Positions 5,478 through 7,259 of a stretch of DNA of 12,537 bases are shown piece after piece. The position numbers and the translations under genes were made by a program. The notes below the pieces were generated by a model. The model saw only the letters and a list, made by a program, of their open reading frames with translations, was not told where the DNA came from and ran no database searches. The stretch is from contig JADFSZ010000032.1 of assembly GCA_022560555.1 (NCBI GenBank), positions 1 to 12,537 on the forward strand, read 5' to 3'. This DNA is from JADFSZ01 sp022560555 [NCBI: PVC group bacterium]. GTDB taxonomy: Bacteria > GCA-001730085 > JADFSZ01. Position 1 is the first letter of the stretch, and every line of letters starts with the position of its first letter.

Positions 5478-6158
5478 ATGGATGCAGGGTTCAATCACGA
5501 ACAAACGAAAAAGATAGAAAAGCTCGTCGCATCCATTGCGCATGAAATTAAGAATCCTCTTGCCGGAATAAGTTCAACCGTCCAAATCTTATCAAGTAAG
5601 CTTCCGCCCGAAGACCACAGGCGTAATTGTATTGATATCATCCTGGAAGAAGTGTCCCGTCTTGAAAGAATTCTGGACCGCTTTCTGATGTTGGCTCGGC
5701 CTCGAAAGCTCACAAAAACCCTGCTGGATGTTAATGAAATTATTGAGAAAGTTATCACTCTCGAACAAAAAAATTATGACCGGAAAAAGATTCAAATGAA
5801 TTTTTATCCGTCTCCGACCACTGACAAGATCCTTGGGGATGCCGAACAAATACAACAAGTCATTCTGAACCTTCTCATCAATTCCAGAAATGCTCTTAAG
5901 GTAGGGGGGGTCGTTGACATTAAGGTTGAATCCTATCCGGAACATGTAAAGATTATGGTGATCGATAACGGTCCCGGAGTTTCTCTCCGGAGCACGCAGG
6001 AGATTTTTGAGCCCTTCTATTCAACGACCCGAAAGGGAGTGGGTTTGGGGCTGGCCATTAGTCGCCGAATTATGAGGGAGCATGGGGGAGATCTCGTTTA
6101 TGAATCGCCGAAGCAGGGGGCCGTTTTTGTTATGAATTTACCGCGAAACCAGATATAG
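5478..6158 (+). CDS. Sensorless soluble histidine kinase
   Basis: This 226-residue protein consists only of a two-component transmitter core. Residues 15-75 are the dimerisation/phosphoacceptor domain, with ASIAHEIKNPLAG carrying phosphoacceptor His22. The catalytic ATPase domain has the N box ILNLLINSRNAL (Asn135), the G1 box IDNGPG (163-167), the F box EIFEPFYST and the G2 box GVGLGLAISRR. The motifs resemble the NtrB/AtoS-type group. There is no membrane segment and no PAS, GAF or other input domain, and no response regulator is nearby. It probably acts in the cytosol and may receive input from a partner protein. The ATG at 5478 has no clear Shine-Dalgarno, and an in-frame stop at 5451 prevents an extension. 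Function is secure at family level, but the pathway is unknown. Confidence 0.88.
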   Translation: MDAGFNHEQTKKIEKLVASIAHEIKNPLAGISSTVQILSSKLPPEDHRRNCIDIILEEVSRLERILDRFLMLARPRKLTKTLLDVNEIIEKVITLEQKNYDRKKIQMNFYPSPTTDKILGDAEQIQQVILNLLINSRNALKVGGVVDIKVESYPEHVKIMVIDNGPGVSLRSTQEIFEPFYSTTRKGVGLGLAISRRIMREHGGDLVYESPKQGAVFVMNLPRNQI

Positions 6159-6197: not shown

Positions 6198-6250
6198 AAT
6201 TGGACTCCATCGGCTTTTAGAGCTTGCTTGGGACTGCTGAGAAAACCGGC

Positions 6251-6278
6251 TTGACTTTTATCATGATTTTGCTAATAT
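6251..6278 (+). promoter_or_regulatory. Candidate promoter with extended -10 in the 6159-6503 gap
   Basis: TTGACT (6251-6256), a 16-base spacer ending in TGC, then TAATAT (6273-6278). The -35 box matches five of six consensus bases and the -10 four of six, with an extended -10 TGn. The predicted start is near 6284-6286, at the first bases of a stable hairpin. It is the best promoter candidate for a small RNA or for the glmU-to-dnaB operon. Confidence 0.55.
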
Positions 6279-6283
6279 GCACG

Positions 6284-6430
6284 TTCCTCTGTTCGAGCTT
6301 CTTTTTGAGAAATCTGCCAGAGGGATGGCTCCTGTTAAAAAAATGTAACACTTTTTTGAGTTTGATCTTATGAAAATTTTTTTAGGATTCCATGGGTCGG
6401 AAGCCCGGCTTTGATGAATCCTATTTTTTT
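6284..6430 (+). ncRNA. Candidate small RNA or attenuating leader, about 147 nt
   Basis: The ends are inferred from the promoter at 6251-6278 and the terminator at 6383-6430. The 5' end forms a stem: 6282-6291 pairs with 6318-6327 (ten pairs, two of them G-U), around a 26-nt loop. The middle has A7 (6337-6343) and T6 (6352-6357), able to pair weakly. The 3' end is the intrinsic terminator. A second pairing, 6330-6333 plus 6337-6343 against 6377-6387, would remove the terminator's 5' arm. I see no match to 6S, SRP, tmRNA or a riboswitch that I know. It may be an independent small RNA or the leader of the downstream operon. Confidence 0.4.
6383..6430 (+). terminator. Intrinsic terminator before the glmU-type gene
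   Basis: TAGGATTC (6383-6390) pairs perfectly with GAATCCTA (6416-6423), followed at once by seven T (6424-6430). The 25-nt loop is GC-rich and can form a small GGG/CCC inner pairing. It stands 73 bases before the next start codon. Either it ends transcription from the kinase/small RNA unit, or it acts as a conditional attenuator of the operon beyond it. Confidence 0.7.
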
Positions 6431-6503
6431 CGGCATAATCGGCTATATAAACAAAACTTTCTAAAGAATAAAGACAGCCAATAGTAAGGGTCGATACGAA
6501 ATC

Positions 6504-7259
6504 TTGAAATCACCCGCTCCAAGACCCATTATTTTAATTTTAGCAGCCGGAAAAGGAAAACGGATGAAGTCCCGTATTCCGAAAGTGTTGCATGAAATAT
6601 TTGGTGTTTCCATGCTCGAGCATGTTGTGAACACCTCAAAAAAAATACATCCACGGGATATTATTATTGTCGTGGGATACAAGGCGCGGCTTGTCAAATC
6701 CCGCATGGGTCCCCTGTTCCAATACGTTGAGCAAAAAAAACAATTAGGAACGGGGCATGCTGTGTTTCAGGCGGAGAAAAAACTAAAACAAAAGAAAGGG
6801 TCCGTGCTCATTCTCTCCGGAGATGTCCCTTTTATAACAGCCGGAACCCTCAGGCGCTTCATGGCGACTCACAACAGGCAAAATGCCGATGGATCGGTTT
6901 TGACAGCCCTCTTGAAGAAGCCGAAACACTATGGGCGTATTGTGAGAAACAAAAGAGGGGAGCTCAAACATATTGTTGAATTTAAAGACGCGGCACGGCC
7001 GGAACGAAATATAAAAGAAATTAACACGGGAATATATTGTTTCAAAATTCAAAAATTGTTTTCGGCGCTGAAATCAGTGAAACCTCACAATCAACAAGGC
7101 GAATATTACCTTACGGATGTTGTAAAGATTTTTATCAAAGACGGTCATAAAATGTTGGCCGTAAGATCAAAATGCTCCAAAGAAATTGAAGGCATCAACA
7201 CAAGAGAAGAACTTAAAAAACTCGAGAAGCAAAAATCTCAAAATCGAATAAAGGAGTGA
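6504..7259 (+). CDS. glmU: GlmU-like N-acetylglucosamine-1-phosphate uridylyltransferase, single domain
   Basis: The 251 residues match the N-terminal nucleotidyltransferase half of GlmU, which makes UDP-GlcNAc for peptidoglycan and lipopolysaccharide. LILAAGKGKRMKSRIPKVL (11-29) is the nucleotide-binding signature. LGTGHA (81-86) and SGDVPF, with metal ligand Asp107, follow. EINTGIYCF (172-180), QGEYYLTDV (198-206) and EGINTREEL, with Asn232 as the likely second metal ligand, are GlmU hallmarks. The left-handed beta-helix acetyltransferase domain (about 200 residues) is missing. The reading frame ends at a stop that overlaps prs, so this is not an obvious frameshift. Acetylation must be done elsewhere if the pathway is complete. 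The start is TTG at 6504, with AAGGG 13 bases upstream, a long spacing. No other in-frame start follows the stop at 6462. Confidence 0.85.
   Translation: MKSPAPRPIILILAAGKGKRMKSRIPKVLHEIFGVSMLEHVVNTSKKIHPRDIIIVVGYKARLVKSRMGPLFQYVEQKKQLGTGHAVFQAEKKLKQKKGSVLILSGDVPFITAGTLRRFMATHNRQNADGSVLTALLKKPKHYGRIVRNKRGELKHIVEFKDAARPERNIKEINTGIYCFKIQKLFSALKSVKPHNQQGEYYLTDVVKIFIKDGHKMLAVRSKCSKEIEGINTREELKKLEKQKSQNRIKE
7251..7256 (+). promoter_or_regulatory. Ribosome binding site that fixes the prs start
   Basis: AAGGAG ends on the first base of a GTG at 7256, so that codon cannot be the start for this site. The in-frame GTG at 7265 lies eight bases downstream, which is ideal spacing. Confidence 0.75.

Follow-up and report, generated by a model that had tools for sequence, protein, structure and literature searches.

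The 345-nt intergenic gap that separates a histidine kinase gene from a glmU-like gene in the analyzed window (the whole 12,537-nt stretch of DNA) probably gives rise to a short non-coding RNA of ~145 nt, as judged from a promoter and a terminator predicted within it. The explanation that we prefer, with a probability of roughly 45%, is that of an independent short non-coding unit at an operon boundary, whose terminator also serves the upstream gene row and which leaves glmU to be started separately. The window is an entire contig (C196); the draft genome to which it belongs comprises 1.66 Mb, is 91.54% complete, and has a G+C content of 0.433 in the readable sampled sequence and 0.383 in the gaps. 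From ilvD on, the upstream row on the plus strand comprises, by Pfam analysis, ilvD, a 209-aa ORF, a gmhB-like gene, ndk, psd, pss, and the histidine kinase (5478 to 6158), whose stop codon ends at 6158 and for which the Pfam search recovered HisKA and HATPase_c domains only and no sensor domain; no response regulator was named among the window proteins scanned. The 209-aa ORF (2297 to 2926), which lies between ilvD and the gmhB-like gene, matched no Pfam family at an E value of 0.001. Beyond the gap, the downstream operon on the plus strand has the order glmU-prs-rplY-pth-rpsF-ssb-rpsR-rplI-dnaB. Its first gene (6504 to 7259; TTG start) was assigned by Pfam and profile matches to the uridylyltransferase half of GlmU: the 251-aa product aligns to approximately positions 3 to 240 of profiles of ~450 positions, and the acetyltransferase half is absent, as it likewise is at the Smithella locus (L005; 245 aa).

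The predicted unit begins with a promoter, P6251 (6251 to 6278, plus strand), all the elements of which were found on checking the sequence where the initial annotation had placed them: TTGACT at 6251 to 6256, a 16-nt spacer, and an extended −10 element consisting of TGC and then TAATAT at 6273 to 6278, which would set the start of transcription at about 6284 to 6286. By a consensus count, the window alone contains 19 promoter-like sites against 19.0 in shuffled versions, and because this is the shuffle level we undertook a calibration against contigs of the same genome. The sample consisted of 80 contigs or contig parts and the window, with 540,627 readable bases (22 of the 80 loci are N throughout, which removes 71,909 of the 612,536 bases of the 80 loci and the window, and they contain no gaps, so that the gap statistics are unaffected). 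ORFs in the sample were called by a simple greedy rule, and promoters were scored with a weight matrix of E. coli-like consensus values, untrained on this genome. P6251 scores 9.62, more than any other promoter in the gap. At or above 9.61, there are 59 sites in gene-facing gaps (41,698 nt; 1.415 per kb), compared with 5 in wrong-facing gaps (34,126 nt; 0.147 per kb), 9 in mononucleotide-shuffled gene-facing gaps (0.216 per kb), and 14 in the N-free coding sequence on which the coding class was counted (134,700 nt; 0.104 per kb). The density of such sites in gene-facing gaps is thus ten times that in wrong-facing gaps and 6.5 times that in the shuffled ones, a contrast from which we would expect roughly 85 to 90% of gene-facing sites of the grade of P6251 to be real and 10 to 15% to arise by chance. 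P6251 therefore stands above chance only on the genome-wide calibration and not within the window. The scale was checked on RNA genes, upstream of which the best sites score 14.45, 13.75, 13.2, 6.65, 6.06, and 4.75 (six tRNA genes), 11.57 (tmRNA), and 7.99 (6S RNA); with these weights, nothing above 6.65 precedes three of the six tRNA genes, and the scale is sensible for some of these RNA genes and silent for others.

At the other end of the unit, the perfect 8-bp terminator stem and the run of seven T's ending at 6430 that had been annotated are also present as described. The outer stem pairs TAGGATTC (6383 to 6390) with GAATCCTA (6416 to 6423), is accompanied by a 7-bp inner stem, and is followed by T7 at 6424 to 6430. 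This hairpin (6383 to 6430, plus strand; −18.4 kcal/mol) ranks 8th among 194 terminator-like sites in the sampled gaps, a count in which one hairpin may figure twice, once on each strand, and its outer stem has a mean probability of 0.96 in the folded 147-nt RNA. It is absent from the list produced by the tool's own terminator scan of the window, which presumably reflects the limit of 8 nt that the scan sets on loop length. Besides it, the plus strand of the gap has a single terminator-like site, a weak one (−8.7; 6248 to 6299). The terminator lies 224 nt past the stop codon of the histidine kinase. Of the 36 co-oriented sites that have a T-rich tail and an energy no higher than −9, the distance to the stop codon before them is at most 90 nt for 23 and greater for 13; as weak sites are counted in this set, the argument from distance rests on the strong ones (−14 or lower, with a T-rich tail), for 11 of 14 of which, by hand count, that distance does not exceed 47 nt. 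The three farther strong ones are at 206 nt (L045), 224 nt (the window), and 298 nt (L023, opposite the tmRNA gene). By eye, the first of these (L045, 6115 to 6164 and upstream, minus strand) belongs to a coaE-like gene with a frame seemingly broken at a run of nine T's, and it is probably coding sequence. The window terminator is hence the one clean case, among the strong ones, that is far from a stop codon, and given where most strong terminators fall it is oddly placed for a plain gene terminator.

Promoter and terminator together delimit a predicted plus-strand RNA from 6284 to 6430 (~145 to 147 nt), which by the Rfam, folding, and ORF analyses is probably non-coding and has no Rfam family. 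It had been proposed as a discrete RNA of about 147 nt with structure at both ends; a unit of ~145 nt is indeed the likeliest product and the 3′ terminator is strong, but the 5′ structure is at the level of chance. The stem of ten pairs reported at the predicted start (6282 to 6291 with 6318 to 6327, including two G-T pairs) does exist, and eight of its pairs would be retained in an RNA starting at 6284 (6284 to 6291 with 6318 to 6325, forming a putative hairpin from 6284 to 6325). The hairpin is favored with a transcription start no later than 6286 and is lost with one at 6287 or later. An eight-pair 5′-end stem recurs in 336 of 2,000 shuffles, the hairpin energy is equaled in 114 of 1,000, and the fold of the whole 147-nt RNA has a z score of −1.41, with 20 of 200 shuffles as good. 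Neither the 5′ stem nor the overall fold is better than chance.

The initial annotation could not match the sequence to a named family, and searches for known RNA classes gave none either. At gathering thresholds, Rfam yielded no match for the gap, and at E values up to 10 it yielded four sub-threshold ones, three of eukaryotic snoRNA type and one to Pseudomonas P9 (13 bits); no riboswitch, T-box, or ribosomal-protein leader family appeared at either setting. ARAGORN detected no tRNA or tmRNA in the window. The 6S RNA (RF00013), which resembles the predicted RNA in being a single-copy non-coding RNA of comparable length, was rejected as an identity for it, as the sole match in the genome lies elsewhere (contig C18, locus L030, 2497 to 2679; 65.4 bits). 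Hfq (PF17209) was found in neither of the two genomes of the phylum, namely the window genome, in which the gene may be missed because the draft is incomplete, and G001, against 5 of 14 control genomes; an Hfq-dependent role for the predicted RNA is thus unlikely. Among the publications listed by a literature search, none was on this gap to judge by its title.

The conservation searches neither support nor refute a function, since near relatives are absent from the comparison set, in which G001 is the one other genome of the phylum. A DNA search with the gap in its own and 97 other genomes, scoring at most 7 first-look candidates per genome, recovered in the others only one 31-nt AT-rich match (G012). 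A structure model built from one sequence entered twice, run with stricter filters and with up to 53 candidates scored per genome, found only itself and nothing in 58 other genomes, G012 included. Searched against 17 sources (the window and 16 loci), this covariance model, R1, recovered its own sequence and two matches at noise level (E = 0.45 and 2.7). The eight relatives of the glmU gene come from Smithella, an Epulonipiscium-labelled MAG, Syntrophaceae, Deltaproteobacteria, three Proteobacteria MAGs, and Chryseobacterium; model R1 had no match in the stretches preceding glmU in seven of them (all but L012), and these seven stretches are too distant to align. By eye, one (L006) has a hairpin and a T run some 150 nt before the glmU frame, and another (L011) has a tRNA-Pro gene on the opposite strand. 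The gene order in G001 is ispE-spoVG-tRNA-Gln-glmU-prs, with the likely glmU start 177 nt after spoVG (69 nt to the longest reading frame). The gap there holds the tRNA-Gln (ttg) gene (L101, 1037 to 1109, minus strand); promoter scores in it do not exceed 6.82, and the hairpin that precedes a T8 run is weak (−7.2). That the window gap might be a decayed tRNA-Gln was rejected, as its local alignment with the G001 tRNA-Gln is equaled by 333 of 500 shuffles; a similarity search with this tRNA found no tRNA-Gln in the draft genome of the window, the best matches being a tRNA-Arg and a 15-nt stretch. Just before ispE, G001 also has a tiny lysine/arginine-rich frame (L101, 2485 to 2600, minus strand), the product of which presumably resembles the small AURKAIP1/COX24-type proteins.

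The distance of 73 nt previously given from the terminator to the downstream operon is correct (6431 to the glmU start at 6504), and a candidate second promoter lies close to this stretch. P6411 (6411 to 6439, plus strand; TTGATG, 17 nt, CATAAT; score, 8.11) has its −35 element inside the terminator, and its −10 element ends 64 nt before glmU, compared with 225 nt for that of P6251. For the 26 divergent-gap promoters scoring at least 9.6, the median distance from the −10 element to the ORF is 62.5 nt, and 25 of the 26 are within 138 nt, although these distances are taken to longest-frame ORF starts and so lean short. The comparison speaks for, but does not prove, an independent unit with a distinct glmU promoter after it. 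P6411 itself is only a moderate match: sites scoring at least 8 occur at 2.638 per kb in gene-facing gaps, 0.85 per kb in wrong-facing gaps, and 1.079 per kb in shuffled ones, an approximately threefold excess over the wrong-facing gaps, and a third to two fifths of this score class is due to chance. Under our preferred explanation, RNA polymerase would start at P6251, at about 6284, and stop at the strong intrinsic terminator at 6424 to 6430, to give a non-coding RNA of ~145 nt. The same terminator would end the transcript of the histidine kinase row, as no comparable one was found in the gap, and the operon from glmU and prs to dnaB would most likely be started by the terminator-overlapping P6411, with some read-through. 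The explanation supposes that the RNA accumulates and that P6411 works; any regulatory role would be expected to proceed by base pairing in trans without Hfq, because no Hfq gene was found. Elsewhere in the genome, there is a second such unit (L091 on contig C118, 2129 to 2250), with a promoter that scores 14.1 and a terminator of −12.5. The next gene, which by eye encodes an Rrf2-like regulator, has a promoter of its own at 2291 (10.87). This second unit gave two eukaryotic sub-threshold Rfam matches only and has no relative in 40 other genomes.

A simpler account, which we consider somewhat unlikely, is that the gap is a plain operon boundary, where the hairpin ends the histidine kinase mRNA after a long 3′ untranslated region (UTR), the promoter match is fortuitous or too weak, and no discrete RNA with a role is made. 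The strength of the terminator and its correct orientation after the histidine kinase agree with this, as do the share of promoter matches at this score that chance would supply, the want of any conservation seen, and the lack of a structural signal beyond the terminator. It has to contend, however, with a separation of 224 nt that is large for a strong terminator in the genome sample and with the standing of P6251 among the better promoter matches, and the downstream operon would need a promoter in the gap unless it depends on read-through. A very improbable alternative is that one of the short reading frames of the gap is translated into a small protein. By codon score, the frames at 6277 to 6348 (23 aa), 6370 to 6415 (14 aa), and 6325 to 6348 (7 aa) fall in the top 6, 5, and 2% of intergenic ORFs, respectively, but the ORFs of the reference set are 20 to 50 codons long, which makes the comparison unequal for the 7- and 14-aa frames, and the 23-aa frame starts upstream of the predicted transcript start with an ATG that overlaps the −10 box. 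A 30-aa frame (6392 to 6484) has AGGA just 5′ of its ATG; against this, it contains part of the terminator, scores like non-coding sequence (43% of intergenic ORFs are at least as good), and found nothing better than an E value of 0.012 in 58 other genomes. The codon score of a 49-aa frame is at or below those of all but 0.6% of coding stretches. There is accordingly no convincing reading frame in the gap, as the initial annotation had held, although codon use is no guide at lengths of 7 to 23 codons.

The remaining explanation makes P6251 the main promoter of the operon from glmU to dnaB and the hairpin ending at 6430 an attenuator, relieved by a ligand, a protein, or a translation event. We regard such an arrangement as unlikely. 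A distance of 73 nt from terminator to start codon is usual for leaders and speaks for it, as does the rank of P6251 as the top-scoring promoter of the gap, and the succession of promoter, ~145 nt, terminator, and then start codon has the layout of a leader with premature termination. A mutually exclusive fold in which 6325 to 6344 pair with 6376 to 6393 would break the terminator at a cost of 5.1 kcal/mol (−31.7 versus −36.8 kcal/mol). When the upstream part was shuffled with the terminator kept fixed, however, the energy gap was equal or smaller in 173 of 500 shuffles, and the duplex energy with the 5′ arm was equaled in 261 of 500; hence, the putative antiterminator fold shows no evidence of selection. 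Unlike leaders of this type, the gap has no recognizable aptamer, no convincing leader peptide, and no match in Rfam to the regulatory leader families sought above, P6251 is farther from glmU than nearly all of the comparable promoters, and P6411 offers a bypass. In PMC7815308, premature termination in 5′ UTRs is described as widespread in E. coli, with short RNAs as a common product, which is in keeping with an attenuator. The earlier suggestion of a small RNA or a leader thus survives in its first half, as a predicted transcription unit, and its second half gained no positive evidence.

The predicted unit, as our preferred explanation has it, can be compared with several established kinds of RNA. 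According to PMC9438474, an early working assumption in screens for intergenic small RNAs was that parts such as a promoter and a Rho-independent terminator should be sought, and the gap has predicted counterparts of both in P6251 and the hairpin at 6383 to 6430. With a sigma-70-type promoter of its own, an intrinsic terminator, a length of ~145 nt, and an otherwise empty gap, it resembles a classical intergenic small RNA gene (100 to 200 nt); it differs from one in that the locus comes without seen conservation, a target, or an Hfq gene found and is predicted from sequence only. It is also like a 3′-end small RNA with its own promoter, as it follows the histidine kinase gene and ends at what is apparently the only terminator of that gene in the gap, but its start would be ~125 nt after the stop codon, and the upstream mRNA is only presumed to reach this far. 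Given the early intergenic screens (PMC9438474) and the commonness in E. coli of short RNAs from premature termination (PMC7815308), the unit is ordinary in kind. That it is a lineage-specific leader or small RNA, absent from Rfam, which ties the cell-wall/PRPP/ribosome/replication operon to a signal in a poorly sampled phylum in which Hfq was not found, appears improbable; apart from the layout of the gap, nothing found here speaks for a regulatory role. The calibration of promoters and terminators within the same genome is a useful output in itself, as it turns a result that is not above chance at the level of the window into one that is probably real. If the RNA exists, it would be a further orphan transcript between operons, from a phylum that is represented in the set by two genomes, Hfq having been found in neither, and it would become weightier if it were shown to gate the essential operon downstream.
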